DNA from: Corynebacterium mendelii
GTDB lineage: Bacteria; Actinomycetota; Actinomycetes; Mycobacteriales; Mycobacteriaceae
DNA length: 64,000 nucleotides
Direction of reading: 5' to 3'
Assembly (NCBI RefSeq): GCF_017307055.1
Contig: NZ_JAFLEQ010000016.1
Coordinates: 67,446 to 131,445 of the forward strand
The translations under genes were made by a program, and so were the position numbers. Below are positions 13,965 through 51,909 of this stretch, one piece after another. The notes beneath the pieces were generated by a model, which saw nothing but the letters and a program-made list of their open reading frames with translations, did not search any database and was not told where the DNA came from. The number at the start of each line of letters is the position of its first letter. Position 1 is the first letter of the stretch.

Positions 13965-14657
13965 ATGAAAATTCTTGTGGTAGATGACGAACAGGCTGTG
14001 CGTGAATCACTGCGCCGGTCGCTGAGCTTCAACGGCTACGACGTGGTCCTGGCCGAAGACGGCGAGCAGGCTCTTGATCTGATTGAAAAAGAACAGCCCG
14101 AACTGGTGATCCTCGACGTGATGATGCCGAAGATCGACGGGCTGGAGGTCTGCCGAACCTTGCGTTCCGGCGGCGATGACCGCCCGATTCTGGTGCTCAC
14201 CGCCCGTGACGGTGTCAGTGAACGCGTCGCCGGGCTGGATGCCGGCGCCGACGATTACCTGCCGAAGCCTTTCGCCCTGGAAGAGCTTCTTGCCCGCGTG
14301 CGGTCGCTGCTGCGGCGTGCCGCGGCCGAAGCCGTCAATTCCCAGTCCTCGGCGGAGCTGGTGTTCCAGGATCTCAAACTCAACCCCGACACCCGGGATG
14401 TCACCCGCGGTGAGCGGTCGATTTCGTTGACCAGGACCGAATTCGCCCTGCTGGAGCTGTTGATGGCCAATCCGCGGCGGGTGCTGTCGCGCTCGTCGAT
14501 TCTGGAAGAGGTGTGGGGCTACGATTTCCCGACTTCCGGCAACGCTCTGGAGGTCTACATCGGCTACCTGCGGCGCAAAACGGAAGCCGACGGTGAATCC
14601 CGTCTCATCCACACCGTCCGCGGTGTCGGTTACGTTCTCCGGGAGACCGCCCCGTGA
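13965..14657 (+). CDS. mprA: Response regulator MprA (OmpR family)
   Basis: A 230-residue two-component regulator. The receiver domain has acidic residues D8-D9, phospho-acceptor D51 (LVILDVMMP), T79 (LVLTARD) and K101 (YLPKPF). The C-terminal winged helix contains [20 protein letters not shown] and [20 protein letters not shown] followed by GVGYVLR. MprA-type regulators respond to envelope stress with kinase MprB, and the htrA-like protease gene downstream is a classical partner. The mprB start overlaps the mprA stop (GTGA), implying translational coupling. No ribosome-binding site before ATG 13965; a leaderless start is likely. Confidence 0.93.
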
Positions 14658-16150
14658 TTCTTCGCCGTCCCGCAAACGGTGCCGTCACCGGTGCCGCAGA
14701 CGGCGAAAAACACCCCGGTGCACGGCCGGAAAGCACCGGCCAGGAGATCAGACGCACCTCGCTGAGATGGCGGCTGGTGATGGTGACCGCCTGCATGGTG
14801 GCTGTCGCCGTTGTCATGATGACACTGGTCGCCTACTGGACTGTGTCCACATCGCTGTCGAAATCGGTGGATGACTCCCTCGATGAGAAAGCCACCTCGC
14901 TTCTGAGTACAACGACCGACCCGTCGTTCGTGTTCAACCCGGTGCAGCAGATTGAGTCATTCCGGGTCTACAACCCCGATATCCGGGTGGCCTATTTCCC
15001 GCCCGGATCGGTCACCCCGATCGGCGACAATATTCCGCTGCTGAAGGAAGTCACCGTGCTGCAGGGCCAGACGGTGACCACCACCAGAAACTCCGGGGAT
15101 GAGCGGATTTTGGCCAAACGCAACTCCGCTGACGCGGTGGTCATTTTGGCCCAGGACATGGCCGAGACCCACAAACTGATCCAGAACCTCGGACTGGTGC
15201 TTTTGGTGATGGGTCTCATCGGCGTGATGGTGGCCGTGGCCACCGGCCTGGTGGTGGCCACCACGGGGCTGCGGCCGGTCTCCCGGCTGCGGCAGGCCGT
15301 CGACTATGTTGCCCGCACCGATGAATTGAAACCGATCGAGGTGGTCGGAAACGACGAGCTGGCGCAGCTGGCCCGCTCCTTCAATGCCATGCTCGAGGCC
15401 CTGGCCGCCTCCCGGCGACGGCAAACCGAACTGGTGGCCGATGCCGGGCACGAGTTGAAAACACCGCTGACATCGCTGCGCACCAATATTGAGCTGTTGA
15501 TGATGGTCGCCGGGAAAGAAGGGGCCAATATTTCGGCCGAGGACCGGGCTGATCTGGAACGCGATGTGGTCGCCCAGATCGAGGAGTTGTCCCGGTTGAT
15601 CGGCGATCTGGTGGACCTGGCCCGGGAAGACGGCAAGCAGCGGGAAAACTTCGGCGAAGTGGACCTGGTGGAGGTACTGGAAAACGCCCTGGAGAAAGTC
15701 CGCCGCAGGCGCTCGGACGTGGAATTCACTTTCCGCAGCGAACCGTGGTTTCTGCTGGGAGACGATTTCGGCCTGGGCCGGGCGATGCTGAACCTGATGG
15801 ACAACGCCGCGAAATGGTCCCCGCCCAACGGGACCGTCAAAATAGAGATGACCCGCATCGCTTTGGACCAGATGGAGGTCACGGTCTCCGACGCCGGACC
15901 CGGTATCCCGAAAGAGGACCGGGAAAAAGTCTTCGAACGGTTCTACCGGTCCATCCAGGCCCGGTCCATGCCCGGCTCCGGCCTGGGATTGGCCATCGTC
16001 CACCAGGTTATTGTCCGCCACAACGGCACCATCACAGTCGGTGAGTCAGCCGACGGCGGCGCCATGATGGTGGTCACGTTGCCCGGCTGCCCCTGCATTC
16101 AGCAGCTCGAGCGGCCGCAACGCCGCGCCGGTGAGAACACCCGGGCCTGA
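14654..16150 (+). CDS. mprB: Sensor histidine kinase MprB
   Basis: A 498-residue membrane kinase. Two membrane helices (residues ~39-63 and ~178-205) flank an extracytoplasmic sensor domain of about 115 residues. A HAMP region follows ([15 protein letters not shown]), then the phospho-acceptor box [15 protein letters not shown] with H266, the N box [11 protein letters not shown], and G boxes [12 protein letters not shown] and [11 protein letters not shown]. It phosphorylates MprA; the periplasmic domain presumably senses envelope damage. The GTG start overlaps the mprA stop by 4 nt. The last ~25 residues are basic and outside the catalytic domain. Confidence 0.93.
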
Positions 16151-16370: not shown

Positions 16371-16589
16371 ATGAAGAAAACCCTTGTTGCCGCCGCTTTA
16401 AGCGTGTCGCTTTTTCTCGGGGGCACCGCCGCACCGGCTACCGCCCAACCGGCGGCCACGCCTGTCGCCCAGGTCGCCGTGGTCACTCTCTACGACATTC
16501 AGACCATGCTGAGCATGGTGGCCACCATCTTGACCATCGTCCAGGTCACCCGTTCCCTGCAGGGCGGCGACTCCTCGCAGAGCAGCTAG
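16371..16589 (+). CDS. Small secreted protein, short paralogue of the next gene
   Basis: A 72-residue protein consisting of a Sec signal peptide (MKKTLVAAALSVSLFLGGTA, predicted cleavage after APATA) and one ~30-residue hydrophobic or amphipathic helix around DIQTMLSMVATILTIVQV, ending SLQGGDSSQSS. The next gene encodes the same arrangement at its N-terminus: MKKTL, then DIQALLSTVATVLTI and ALKGG. The two are therefore paralogues, the short one lacking the repeat linker and C-terminal domain. Start chosen at ATG 16371 by this similarity; ATG 16365 is two codons upstream. Position between mprB and htrA suggests an envelope-stress role. No family recognised. Confidence 0.65.
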   Translation: MKKTLVAAALSVSLFLGGTAAPATAQPAATPVAQVAVVTLYDIQTMLSMVATILTIVQVTRSLQGGDSSQSS

Positions 16590-16888
16590 CAGGTCACCGA
16601 TATTGTTTTTTTAAACCGCGGCCCACAGCCGCACCCGGCAGGGTGCCCCGGGTGCGGGTCCAGCTGTGTGGTCCGTGGTGTGCAGGCCGTGTTGCCGGTG
16701 CGGTTGCCCCGGGGCCGGGGGAGTGTGTGTATTCTGCCTGCAATCGCCGCGGCTCTGGTTTTTTTTAAAAGCGGTGTGAGATTTTTTTGACCAACCCACA
16801 CCCCGGTGGCACATCCCCGGTGGCCGACCATGCCGCCGCCGGGGTGGAGCCACCGGCGTGACCGACGAAGGGATACCGGGGGATGAGA

Positions 16889-17671
16889 ATGAAAAAAACC
16901 CTGCTGGCAACAACTGTTGCGGTGTCGATGGGCCTGGGATCGGTTGTCCCGGCCACCGCCGAGCCGCTGCCGGCGACACCGAAGACTGCTGATGCTCCGG
17001 CGCAGGGCCGGCATGTCAATGCGGTGGTTGTCGGGCTGGGGGATATCCAGGCCCTGCTGAGCACGGTCGCCACGGTGCTGACCATTATTGCCACCATTCA
17101 GGCTCTTAAAGGCGGGACTGCCGGTGGGCAGGAAGGCGGCTCATCAGATGACCTGTCCAGCGGGGCAGGTTCCGGGCCAAAACAACACCTGCCCGTCACC
17201 ACACCCGGCGGTACCACCACGCCCGGCGGTACCACCAACCCCGGTGGTGCCACCACACCCGGCGGTACCACCAACCCCGGCGGTGCCACCACCGGTGTCT
17301 TTGATGCGGACAAGGTTGTGCTGCAGGTGATTGACGCGATGAACAACCGGCGCCACGCCGTTGGCCTTGACCTGCTCTACTCGATCGAAAACAAAAAAGA
17401 TGACGACAGTTTCGGTGCCCGCTATGTTCTCGCCCACCCGCCGGGAACACCCGTGAGACAGGATAAGGTGGCTTTGCCCGGCGCACCCTATCTGGAAACC
17501 GAAGAGCTGACCATCGTCGGCAACCGGGTGGGCACGGCTTTCGCCCGTATCGCCCAAAAAGACGCCCGATGGATGAAGCCCGACGTGAAACAGGTCGAAA
17601 TCGCCGCTGCCCGCACAGCCGACGGCTGGCGTGTCGTCGTGGTCTCCTACGGGGCGAGGACCGACAGCTGA
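16889..17671 (+). CDS. Secreted protein with DIQ helix, Pro-Gly-Thr repeat linker and CAP-like C-terminal domain
   Basis: A 260-residue exported protein. Residues 1-27 are a signal peptide ending near VPATAEP. Residues ~45-75 form the helix DIQALLSTVATVLTIIATIQ shared with the preceding small protein. A Gly/Ser-rich stretch leads to five TPGGTT/NPGGAT repeats (about residues 105-134). The last ~125 residues (VLQVIDAMNNRRHAVGLDLL to WRVVVVSYG) resemble by eye a divergent CAP/SCP domain, with the N-x2-R-x3-GL helix and a terminal beta strand. Start at ATG 16889 after GGGGGATGAG. Likely surface-exposed or cell-wall associated; target unknown. Confidence 0.7.
   Translation: MKKTLLATTVAVSMGLGSVVPATAEPLPATPKTADAPAQGRHVNAVVVGLGDIQALLSTVATVLTIIATIQALKGGTAGGQEGGSSDDLSSGAGSGPKQHLPVTTPGGTTTPGGTTNPGGATTPGGTTNPGGATTGVFDADKVVLQVIDAMNNRRHAVGLDLLYSIENKKDDDSFGARYVLAHPPGTPVRQDKVALPGAPYLETEELTIVGNRVGTAFARIAQKDARWMKPDVKQVEIAAARTADGWRVVVVSYGARTDS
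17201..17290 (+). repeat. Five 18-bp tandem repeats encoding TPGGTT/NPGGAT
   Basis: Five in-frame units of 18 bp, alternating two close variants, form the linker of the secreted protein. Slippage here would change linker length by six residues without breaking the frame. Confidence 0.9.
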
Positions 17672-17829: not shown

Positions 17830-19662
17830 ATGACGAACACATTCGATTCCGACGACACCAACCGCCCGCACCCCGCATCCACCGGTGGTGGTGCGCCGCA
17901 GGGGGATGACCCGGCTACCGCCGGCAGCCCGCACGATTGCGCGTCCGGGCAGGATTATTTCGGCACTTCTCATCCGCAGCAGCCGCCGTATGAGGGTGAA
18001 CCACCGGCTGTCGAGAACGGACACGCCTCCGCCGGTTTCGGCCCCCGCTGGGATGACCGGGAGACCGTCGGCCCCTTTGATGACGGCCAGCAGGCAGGTG
18101 GCGGGCGGGATTATTCCCCCACCGCACACCACCAAGGCCGGGACAACGACAACGCCCTTCCGGTCAGTGGCGGTCCAGCCTACGGTGACAGTTCCTCCAC
18201 CGGCGACTGGTCAGCCCCGGCGGCCAGCCCAACCAGTGGTGGTTATCCGCGGCATCCGGCCGATGATCCGGCGGCCCCGGCTGGTGGTCTCCCGGCTGAC
18301 AGTAGTGATGATCCTGCTGCCGCCACCGCCGAATTCGGCCGGGTCACCGACCAGGCCACCCCACCTGCCGCACCGGCGGCCGGGGCGGCCTCCGCCACCC
18401 ACGCCTGGCGGCAGCCGGGTGAGGTTGCCGCAACGACGGTTGCGGCACCGCGGAAGAAAAACCGCGCCCAAGTGGGGTTGGGGACCGCCCTGGCACTGAT
18501 GCTGGTAGGGGCGGTGGCCGCAGGATCGGTCACCGGGGTGGCCGTGCACCGGTTGACCACACCGGATACTGCCGCGACAGCACACAGTTCGCTCAGCACC
18601 ACGGCTGCCGCCAGCCGGGACAAAGCGGTGATCACCGCCGGGGATGCCAATGCCGTGGAAACCGTGGCCGCCACCGTGCTGCCGTCGGTTGTCTCCATTC
18701 GGGTGGTCACCCCGCAGGGCATGGATGAAGGTTCCGGGTCGATCATTTCCTCCGACGGGATGGTGCTGACCAACAACCATGTCATCAGTGACGCCAAACG
18801 CGGCGGCACCATCACCGTGACCCTCAACGACGGAACCACCTTCGACGCGGATCTCATTGCCGGGGATGCGGAAACAGATATTGCGGTGATCAAACTGAAA
18901 GACGCCGCGAATCTTCCGGTGATCAAGTTCGGCAACTCCGATGAACTGGCGGTCGGCCAGCAGGTGGTGGCCATCGGCTCCCCGCTGGGTTTGTCGGCCA
19001 CGGTCACCACCGGAATTGTCTCGGCCCTGAACCGCCCGGTGCGGGCCGGAAGCTCCGGGGGACAGTCGTCGCTGATTGATGCCATCCAAACCGATGCGGC
19101 CATCAACCCCGGCAACTCCGGCGGGCCGCTGGTAGATATGGAAGGAAACCTCATCGGCATGAACTCGGTGATCGCCTCCAATGCGGCGGCCCGCGGGCAG
19201 GCGGGTTCGATCGGATTGGGTTTTGCCATCCCGTCGAACTATGCCCGGCGTATCGCCCAGCAACTCACCGACACCGGCGAAGTGGTGCAGCCGATGATCA
19301 AAGTGTCACTGGATCCGCGTTCCACTCTCCGCGGGGCACTGGTCGCCGACGCCGATCCCACCGGCCCGGCCGGGCGGGCCGGCATCACCAAAGGGGATTT
19401 GATCACCGGGGTCAACAACCGCCTGATCGATTCCACTGACGCCCTGATCGCGTCGATCCGCACCCACGAGTTCGGGGAAACCGTCACCCTGAAAGTCGTC
19501 AACCCCGATTCCGGGCAAACCCGGGACGTTGAGGTCACCTTGACCGACCGCGCTGAATCAGAGGCCGCCACCCAGCGTGAACCCGATCAAAGCCAGCTGG
19601 AGCAGCAGCAGAAACAGGAACTGCACCGCCGCCTGGAAGAAGAACTTCAGCGGCTGCGCTAG
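17830..19662 (+). CDS. htrA: HtrA/DegP-like membrane-anchored serine protease with PDZ domain
   Basis: A 610-residue protein. Residues 1-210 are a long cytosolic low-complexity region rich in Asp, Pro, Gly and Ala. A membrane helix spans about 215-239. The trypsin-like domain carries the triad H317 (LTNNHVIS), D350 (ETDIAVIKL) and S430 (NPGNSGGPLV). A PDZ domain covers roughly 500-590 (RAGITKGDLITGVNNRLI), and the end is a Gln/Glu/Leu/Arg-rich helix. It degrades or chaperones misfolded envelope proteins. It lies downstream of mprAB, which in mycobacteria controls related proteases. Start at ATG 17830; no strong ribosome-binding site. A good terminator follows. Confidence 0.92.
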   Translation: MTNTFDSDDTNRPHPASTGGGAPQGDDPATAGSPHDCASGQDYFGTSHPQQPPYEGEPPAVENGHASAGFGPRWDDRETVGPFDDGQQAGGGRDYSPTAHHQGRDNDNALPVSGGPAYGDSSSTGDWSAPAASPTSGGYPRHPADDPAAPAGGLPADSSDDPAAATAEFGRVTDQATPPAAPAAGAASATHAWRQPGEVAATTVAAPRKKNRAQVGLGTALALMLVGAVAAGSVTGVAVHRLTTPDTAATAHSSLSTTAAASRDKAVITAGDANAVETVAATVLPSVVSIRVVTPQGMDEGSGSIISSDGMVLTNNHVISDAKRGGTITVTLNDGTTFDADLIAGDAETDIAVIKLKDAANLPVIKFGNSDELAVGQQVVAIGSPLGLSATVTTGIVSALNRPVRAGSSGGQSSLIDAIQTDAAINPGNSGGPLVDMEGNLIGMNSVIASNAAARGQAGSIGLGFAIPSNYARRIAQQLTDTGEVVQPMIKVSLDPRSTLRGALVADADPTGPAGRAGITKGDLITGVNNRLIDSTDALIASIRTHEFGETVTLKVVNPDSGQTRDVEVTLTDRAESEAATQREPDQSQLEQQQKQELHRRLEEELQRLR

Positions 19663-50604: not shown

Positions 50605-51486
50605 TTAGCCGACGAAACGCTCGACGAAGAACCACTGGCCGGTGGAGGTGTCACGGTAGACACCGATACCGACGTATTTCATGTCCGGATCAAGCAGGTT
50701 GGCGGCTGCGGAATGATCCCGCACCCAGGCCTCGTTGGCTGCCATGGGCGCATTGGCGTTGTTGGACCACCAGATGTTTTCCGCCCCGGCATGTTTGCCC
50801 CGGCCCTGGTACCAGTCGGCCTGTTCAATCTCACCGGTATCCAGCCAGTCCCGCAGAATCGAGGTGTCGTAGGCCAGGTCGGCTTCTTTGTTCAGCTTCG
50901 CCTGGCGCACCGCATTGACGCCCTTGGCGGCAATGGCGCGGCCCAGGCGCTGCGCCCCACTGTCGGCGGACTGCTGCAGGTAGGGGTCGACCTGAAGCTC
51001 CGGAAGATTCTGGGTTGAGCGGTAGGTGTTGAGGGTGCGCAGCATGATTTCGCGTGCCCGATCCACCGACGGGCCTTCCAATCCCGCCACCGGAACGGCG
51101 TTGTCGGCGATGCCCGCGGCATCCCGGGACAGGTAGTCGTAGGGATTGGTGTCGGTGTCTTTACTGGCGGTAAGTGTCTGCTGCGGGGGCACCGGCTGAT
51201 TGTCGGCTGCGGCAGCCTGGTACTGCTCGGCGTGGTCGGCGATCACCGTGACAATGGCCGCGAAACCAACCACTGCGGCCACTGTGCCGATCAGACCCGG
51301 GTGGAGCGGATTGGCCTGCTCCGGGGGCTGGTGGTCAGTGGTGGTATGCAACGGGGCGGCCCCGGCGGAGCCGGTCGATGCCGCTGACATGCTCAACGCC
51401 ACAGCGGTCATGCTCGCGAGAGTGACTCTGACACGCGAGGTGGGACGCCTGTGCTTGTGCATGCTGACGAGCCGGTGCTTGCTCAT
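50605..51486 (-). CDS. Exported CAP/SCP-domain protein
   Basis: A 293-residue exported protein. A basic N-terminus (MSKHRLVSMHKHRRPTSRV) precedes a signal peptide that should be cleaved near SAGAAP. A second hydrophobic stretch (LIGTVAAVVGFAAIVTVIAD, residues ~70-90) may anchor it. The CAP domain covers ~150-293: REIMLRTLNTYRSTQNLPEL, DPYLQQSADSGAQRLG, HAGAENIWWS, AVRDHS-like NEAWVRDHSAAANLL, and KYVGIGVYRDTSTGQWFFVE. CAP proteins in bacteria include nucleases, proteases and stress factors. ATG 51486 lacks a strong ribosome-binding site; ATG 51462 is an alternative. Confidence 0.82.
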   Translation of the reverse strand: MSKHRLVSMHKHRRPTSRVRVTLASMTAVALSMSAASTGSAGAAPLHTTTDHQPPEQANPLHPGLIGTVAAVVGFAAIVTVIADHAEQYQAAAADNQPVPPQQTLTASKDTDTNPYDYLSRDAAGIADNAVPVAGLEGPSVDRAREIMLRTLNTYRSTQNLPELQVDPYLQQSADSGAQRLGRAIAAKGVNAVRQAKLNKEADLAYDTSILRDWLDTGEIEQADWYQGRGKHAGAENIWWSNNANAPMAANEAWVRDHSAAANLLDPDMKYVGIGVYRDTSTGQWFFVERFVG

Positions 51487-51909
51487 AATGGGTTGCCTGA
51501 AATCCTTCCACACATGTCCGCGCACGGCGGACTCGGCCATGGCCTGGCCGACACATCCCCGGCAGACGGGAGTGCCGACACCTCAAACAATAGCGCTTTC
51601 GCCCTTTAAATAACAGTTGCGCAGGGGTTTCCTGCTGAGCGTTGTCGAAGGTGACGGGTCTGCGACGAGGAGGAAACGCCGGAAGTCTTGGGGGCAATTA
51701 CGTGAGGCATGAGGGGTTTGGCTGTGAATCCGCCGCACGGTTGGGGCGTGGTCCAGGGGGTGTCCGCGGCGGGAAGGCGCAGGTGGCTTTCAGGTGGGGC
51801 GGCTGCAATGACTGTTCGACGTGAATTGATTGTGGGTTGGTGGTGTAGTCCGGGCATGGGCCGGGCCGGTAACTTTGGTGGTCACCTGCCTGAACCGGGA
51901 CGTGATCTG

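Follow-up and report, generated by a model that had tools for sequence, protein, structure and literature searches.

The window analysed here, a 64,000-nucleotide stretch of a Corynebacterium mendelii contig (NZ_JAFLEQ010000016.1), carries two adjacent open reading frames, whose products are termed P0001 and P0002, between the genes of an MprAB two-component system and htrA (Table 1). The neighboring genes were verified by the domains of their products, so that the placement given in the first-pass annotation of this DNA holds. Both frames look coding, start with MKKTL and share a helix that begins with D-I-Q and ends in (Q/K)GG, as that annotation had noted and as is seen in the alignment of the two proteins. 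An N-terminal hydrophobic segment resembling a signal peptide is recognizable by eye in each of them, and that of P0001 is likely, on the same kind of inspection, to be cut after ATA (16445). P0001 stops shortly past the helix, while P0002 continues beyond it with a Gly/Thr/Pro linker and a 126-residue domain. For P0002 the ATG at 16889 appears to be a better start than the one at 16883, given the GGGGG stretch. No Rfam family was recovered at the locus at gathering score, and the search for promoters and terminators yielded nothing above shuffles. Among the titles and abstracts of the open PMC papers listed, none deals with this pair.

Table 1. Features of the mprAB-htrA region of the window (positions are those of the window)
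Feature	Coordinates	Strand	Description or basis
MprA-type (OmpR-type) response regulator	13965..14657	+	context
MprB-type histidine kinase, HAMP/HisKA	14654..16150 (start approximate)	+	context
P0001	16371..16589	+	72 aa: signal peptide, short spacer, D-I-Q helix, QGG, Ser-rich tail
Shared helix of P0001, DIQTMLSMVATILTI...QGG	16494..16568	+	alignment
TTTTAAAAAA, one mismatch to the published MprA motif	16761..16770	-	upstream of P0002, within a T/A tract; of doubtful significance
P0002, alternative start	ATG 16883	+	262 aa
P0002	16889..17671	+	260 aa: signal peptide, spacer, D-I-Q helix, repeat linker, CAP-like domain
Shared helix of P0002, DIQALLSTVATVLTI...KGG	17042..17116	+	alignment
18-nt repeats coding the Gly/Thr/Pro linker of P0002 (~60 residues)	17197..17291	+	repeat analysis
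Putative degenerate CAP-like domain of P0002	17291..17668	+	landmarks, corynebacterial CAP profile
HtrA/PepD-type protease, Trypsin_2+PDZ	17830..19662	+	context

In the alignment of the two products the segment VVTLYDIQTMLSMVATILTI...QGG of P0001 is matched with VVGLGDIQALLSTVATVLTI...KGG of P0002, and the signal peptides align too. Alignment of the N-terminal parts gives a score of 129, where shuffles average 32, and that of the mature segments gives 83, where they average 25.7, with none of 2000 shuffles reaching the observed score in either comparison. As hydrophobic blocks inflate the scores obtained with plain shuffles, the mature segments were also compared with shuffles confined to ten-residue blocks, which gave a mean of 34.6 and again no case in 2000 that reached 83. 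The coding DNA of the two genes likewise aligns (28 versus a shuffle mean of 12.6; 0/500). The proposal made at the outset, a tandem duplication in which a domain was gained or lost, is upheld by these comparisons, with the linker and the additional domain being present in P0002 alone. The similarity that had also been claimed for the DNA upstream of both starts was not recovered: the alignment scores for 120, 60 and 200 nt were matched by 458, 287 and 324 of 500 shuffles respectively, and a common upstream regulation through similar DNA was accordingly rejected. In the signal-peptide block and the helix block alike dN is 0.37 and dS about 1.7 (dN/dS ~0.2). With dS near saturation and dN at this value, the two copies go back to an old duplication and have kept their amino-acid sequence. 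Judged by these sequence comparisons the paralogy is real, and the pair appears to be an old tandem duplicate maintained by selection. Given that P0001 consists of the shared N-terminal part alone and is seen in a single species, it might instead be a functionless remnant of a duplicate whose domain was lost. This is quite unlikely, as its frame is intact and its GC3 (0.81) is close to that of mprB (0.80); the near-saturated synonymous sites coupled with a preserved helix point in the same direction, though that signal is common to both copies and unassignable to P0001.

The immediate surroundings of the pair belong to the MprAB-PepD/HtrA envelope stress locus. A search of the 242 genus genomes at E<=1e-60 recovered HtrA in 238, and the DNA upstream of htrA was taken from 40 chosen genomes, most of them with high HtrA scores. 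An mprB match lies upstream of htrA in 36 of these 40 loci, and by both ORF listing and tblastn the pair is absent from the mprB-htrA gap of all 36 (one gap in the ORF listing, that of L042, is a frame artefact). With the present window as a working control, tblastn over the 40 loci gave just two matches (E 0.04-0.05), both outside the gaps. In a second set of 80 loci, 38 were from the Corynebacterium side and were examined, the other 42 being mostly from Mycobacterium. In 36 of these 38 htrA lies downstream, at 432-1251 nt from the mprB match to the protease domain of HtrA versus about 2550 nt here, and the best match to P0002 has an E-value of just 0.057. Across the 241 other genomes of the genus neither protein has a convincing homolog: P0002 was matched by nothing below E 0.002 (five genomes have a match at E<=0.01) and the best match to P0001 reached E 0.00125, with weak matches at E<=0.1 in 33 genomes; this search combined a loose first pass with a short helix, and could have missed diverged relatives. 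Among the species searched the pair occurs in this one alone, and its position between mprAB and htrA is not shared by the relatives examined. Since the mprB-htrA gaps examined in the relatives hold no copy, MprAB and HtrA do without the pair. The conserved presence between mprB and htrA that would typify a core MprAB-HtrA component was not seen in the loci examined, and on the available sequences the genes are best read as having been inserted into a conserved stretch running from mprAB to htrA. An origin from a mobile element was considered and rejected: searches with P0002 came back empty from contig collections (genome and viral) as well as from plasmids and phages, the GC content is 0.637 versus 0.629 for the window, and there are no noteworthy flanking repeats.

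These observations bear directly on the role that the first-pass annotation had envisaged for the pair, namely that of an envelope-stress sensor or a modulator of MprB. The adjacency to mprAB and htrA and the likely export of both products would suit proteins that sense envelope stress and act on MprB or HtrA. However, the synteny check revealed no co-occurrence with mprAB in the relatives searched, the pair not being found in examined relatives that share the same mprAB-htrA block, and the conservation of partner residues cannot be assessed for a pair from a single species. As no other species searched has the pair, a stress-sensing or MprB-modulating role lacks support and is very improbable.

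The first-pass annotation had further described a repeat linker and a CAP-like domain in P0002. The former is evident from the 18-nt repeats, whereas the latter stood in part, the profile match being weak and a Pfam match lacking. No Pfam family matched P0002 at E<=1, nor at E<=0.1 in a second run; six of the seven rows of alignment A4 match Pfam CAP at E<=0.1 in a run where P0002 matched none. Searches of NCBIfam, PHROGs and PDB sequences with P0002 returned nothing credible. A profile of 44 corynebacterial CAP rows, from which P0002 itself was excluded, scores the domain at 7.5 bits, a value that none of 5000 shuffles reaches and that one of 2745 windows of other real proteins ties, with 24 of the 44 rows having come from a search whose seven-row profile included P0002. 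This profile includes L101, a wrong-frame read (-0.2 bits); the re-fetched loci L095-L099 and L120 were left out of it, and L090 out of both CAP profiles. With the smaller first profile 1 of 1000 shuffles outscored P0002. Comparison of the domain with CAP by hhalign gave an E-value of 0.008, yet a probability of 5%, and with the whole of P0002 the signal peptide alone was aligned. BLASTP matched P0002 across most of its length to L088, a corynebacterial protein combining a helix with a CAP domain, at E 0.006, and to L092 at E 0.42. In the CAP alignment the start of the domain (N..R...GL) and its end, DGWRVVVVSYG (ADGWRVVVVSYG), are in register. The CAP superfamily (PF00188) is characterized by conserved His/Glu site residues, and in alignment with CAP rows this set is incomplete in P0002: the second His, the H of SPGHR, is absent (QKDAR), while the other positions have an HPP and a Glu close by.

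Structure prediction adds to this picture within narrow bounds. The unaided single-sequence model of P0002 is worthless (pLDDT 35), and the helix that it places at 52-76 is of correspondingly low confidence. A model of the domain built with CAP rows, and hence biased by that alignment, attains a pLDDT of 72.5; its best Foldseek match to CAP chains has an E-value of 0.0059, with none at 0.001 or better, and its VIA Z is 12.8 to 4h0a_A, with unrelated rows from near Z 3.3. The absent Pfam match, the low hhalign probability in spite of the E-value, the shuffle that exceeded P0002 with the smaller profile and the real window that tied with it under the larger one would all be expected if the domain were not CAP and rather unrelated or new. 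Set against this are the failure of all 5000 shuffles with the larger profile, itself partly built from a P0002-containing search, and the two end landmarks in register with the CAP alignment, making a non-CAP domain unlikely. The domain at the C-terminus of P0002 has probably degenerated from a CAP domain, and is named CAP-like here rather than being counted as a CAP member.

P0002 resembles the secreted corynebacterial CAP proteins (PF00188, e.g. Cg0793) in that a CAP or CAP-like domain comes after a signal peptide, but differs from Cg0793 in its extra helix and repeat linker, in the absence of a Pfam match and in the loss of CAP residues. A closer architectural parallel is provided by a subset of the CAP proteins from this genome and nine relatives. 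Of 27 CAP matches (8 + 19), 21 were analysed, leaving aside L056 (several CAP copies), L059, L087, L093 and L094 (weak or without a clear ORF) and L091; alignment A2 comprises 18 of the 21. Five of the 21 have a clear second helix between the signal peptide and the CAP domain (L057, L079, L085, L088 and L092), and L113 from a further genome, G178, adds one, while a weak peak of 1.29 after the signal peptide of L052 was not scored as a helix. The layout of signal peptide, helix, linker and CAP domain recurs in corynebacteria. Like P0002, these six proteins display a signal peptide, a spacer, a helix and a low-complexity linker; unlike it, the first five match Pfam CAP and L113 matches the corynebacterial CAP profile, and none was found beside mprAB. 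One of them, L057, lies in the same window (~50608-51540, minus strand) and codes for 311 aa with a signal peptide, helix and CAP domain scoring above the Pfam cut-off; its layout resembles that of L085 in genome G029. Another of them, from G044, is among the weak genus matches of P0002 (E 0.0028). In L090 (G011), another CAP protein, a hydrophobic helix is C-terminal instead of behind the signal peptide.

A wider kinship of the helix itself, with L004, L003b, L085 and others, appeared strong under plain shuffles and mostly faded under block shuffles. Against P0002 the score was reached in 1 of 2000 block shuffles for L003b, 6 for L085, 11 for L079, 39 for L004, 151 for L006, 180 for L092 and 236 for L088; against P0001 it was reached in at least 238 for all seven spacer-helix proteins and in at least 290 for the four helix-CAP proteins among them, so that homology between the helix of these four and the DIQ helix is not clear. 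L066 and L070, considered as candidates for a wider DIQ-helix family, are small proteins with a signal peptide and a hydrophobic segment that lack DIQ, and no small ORF of this kind was present at L065, L067 and L071, where one strand was read. The similarity to other spacer-helix proteins thus appears to be mostly one of architecture, with the DIQ helix having no proven relative beyond the pair. In sum, the pair is a variant, particular to this lineage, of the secreted CAP-like proteins that bear a helix, and its location is noteworthy.

The proposal that both products are likely to be exported and share a hydrophobic helix agrees with their signal-peptide-like starts and aligned helices. The interpretation that we tentatively favor is that they are lineage-specific, Sec-exported envelope proteins with helices that lie in the mycomembrane or pair with one another, P0002 displaying its CAP-like domain; the location and pairing of the helices are what we infer in this proposal. 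Export of both proteins by Sec would be its safest step. The helix, which is moderately hydrophobic and contains polar D, Q, S and T residues, might then escape Sec stop-transfer, and lodge in the mycomembrane or pack with its copy through an S..AT..T face. P0002 would present a degenerate CAP domain functioning in binding rather than cutting, and P0001 would act as a helix-only partner or filler subunit. If the C-terminal domain of P0002 is outside, the second helix must have let transfer proceed across the plasma membrane; the moderate hydrophobicity, polar residues, linker and CAP-like domain would be in keeping with a helix whose final place is the mycomembrane or a bundle.

By default, a hydrophobic helix behind a signal peptide is an inner-membrane stop-transfer segment, which speaks against a mycomembrane location. 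The 19-residue hydrophobic peaks past the signal peptide (1.56 in P0001 and 1.96 in P0002) would also be in keeping with an ordinary inner-membrane segment, such that the proteins reside in the plasma membrane with the C-terminal domain of P0002 in the cytosol. We regard this as rather improbable: the mean Eisenberg hydrophobicity of the shared helix is just moderate (0.43 in P0001 and 0.55 in P0002), and P0002 bears a Gly/Thr/Pro-rich linker and a CAP-like domain, both of which are typical of exported regions.

The assembly envisaged under the favored interpretation, of exported proteins with helices in the mycomembrane or paired, would work in the manner of PS2, with its helix anchor, and of the small helical proteins of the mycomembrane. 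PorA and PorH are described in one study as a predicted hetero-oligomer in the mycomembrane (PMC12632848), and the present pair would be comparable in consisting of two small helical partners encoded together. Unlike PorH, for which the absence of a signal peptide is predicted (PMC8854784), P0001 and P0002 each carry a signal-type N-terminal segment as judged by eye, and neither is a small helical protein devoid of a signal peptide in the manner of PorA/PorH. The Ser-rich tails are the sole feature bearing on a PorA/PorH-type mycomembrane location and O-mycoloylation. PS2 is reported to be exported and anchored in the mycomembrane by a C-terminal helix, with the helices forming a coiled coil (PMC12337289); the likeness lies in the proposed helix anchoring, the PS2 anchor being C-terminal and its other domains different. 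Whether insertion into the mycomembrane needs specific machinery is stated to be unknown in PMC12632848. If the helix truly carries Sec-exported domains to the mycomembrane, the pair would offer a small testable model for the choice that corynebacteria make between stop-transfer at the inner membrane and insertion into the outer one. One could go further and envisage a hetero-oligomeric mycomembrane assembly of P0001 and P0002 built on one helix, set by MprAB and displaying the CAP-like domain, with the free helix subunit adjusting how many domains are displayed, i.e. a lineage-specific surface module inserted in an envelope-stress locus; this is a long shot.

A link between MprAB and secreted CAP proteins is indicated by work on C. 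glutamicum, in which MprA is reported to bind at mprA and htrA, and at cg0793 with high affinity (PMC12113857; correction PMC13414042). Cg0793 is there described as a secreted CAP protein that is MprA-repressed and a direct target, with the change in cg0793 expression printed as 3.45 when mprA is deleted and -4.15 when it is overexpressed (Table 1 of PMC12113857), and the MprA motif as TKTTAAGAAM. The published cg0793 sites were located upstream of an ORF in L080 that consists of a signal peptide and a CAP domain, and Cg0793 can therefore be said to have no helix. In the present window a T/A-tract match to the motif with one mismatch occurs upstream of P0002; none of 100 shuffles is as good, this being one of four regions tested. 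The regions upstream of the window's own mprA, htrA and P0001 yield matches with three mismatches, which 77, 64 and 81 of 100 shuffles equal, and the window is not enriched in the motif (57 versus 49.8 expected). Upstream of mprA in the relatives a match with two mismatches or fewer is found in 12 of the 17 readable cases (of 40 loci). It is possible, if on the less likely side, that the pair is an output of the MprAB regulon, an envelope-remodeling product like Cg0793 that exerts no feedback on MprB. The binding of MprA to the cg0793 promoter, the published sites before the ORF of L080 and the match upstream of P0002 argue for this, while the T/A-tract nature of that match, the chance level of the other three regions, the missing enrichment and the lack of a helix and linker in Cg0793 argue against it. 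Such regulation is compatible with the favored interpretation of exported envelope proteins and concerns regulation only. A CAP-like gene beside mprAB, along with the control of Cg0793 by MprA, raises the question of whether secreted CAP proteins are a recurring MprAB output.

Further genes coding for small exported or CAP proteins were observed elsewhere in the C. mendelii genome. In L003 (554-2429; contig C8 near 351.7 kb) three small proteins are encoded on the same strand; each of them begins like a signal peptide and has a single hydrophobic helix, and no CAP domain was seen. L004 (1546-1854, minus strand; C12 near 553.6 kb) codes for a small protein with a signal peptide and a helix; this gene and L006 of G029 both adjoin a transaldolase-like gene, their helices differ, and they perhaps represent a fast-changing class at a fixed locus. 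Finally, L053 and L054 (C17, 680 and 684 kb), along with L055, include near-duplicate CAP genes about 4 kb apart, and the signal peptides of L053 and L054 are almost identical.
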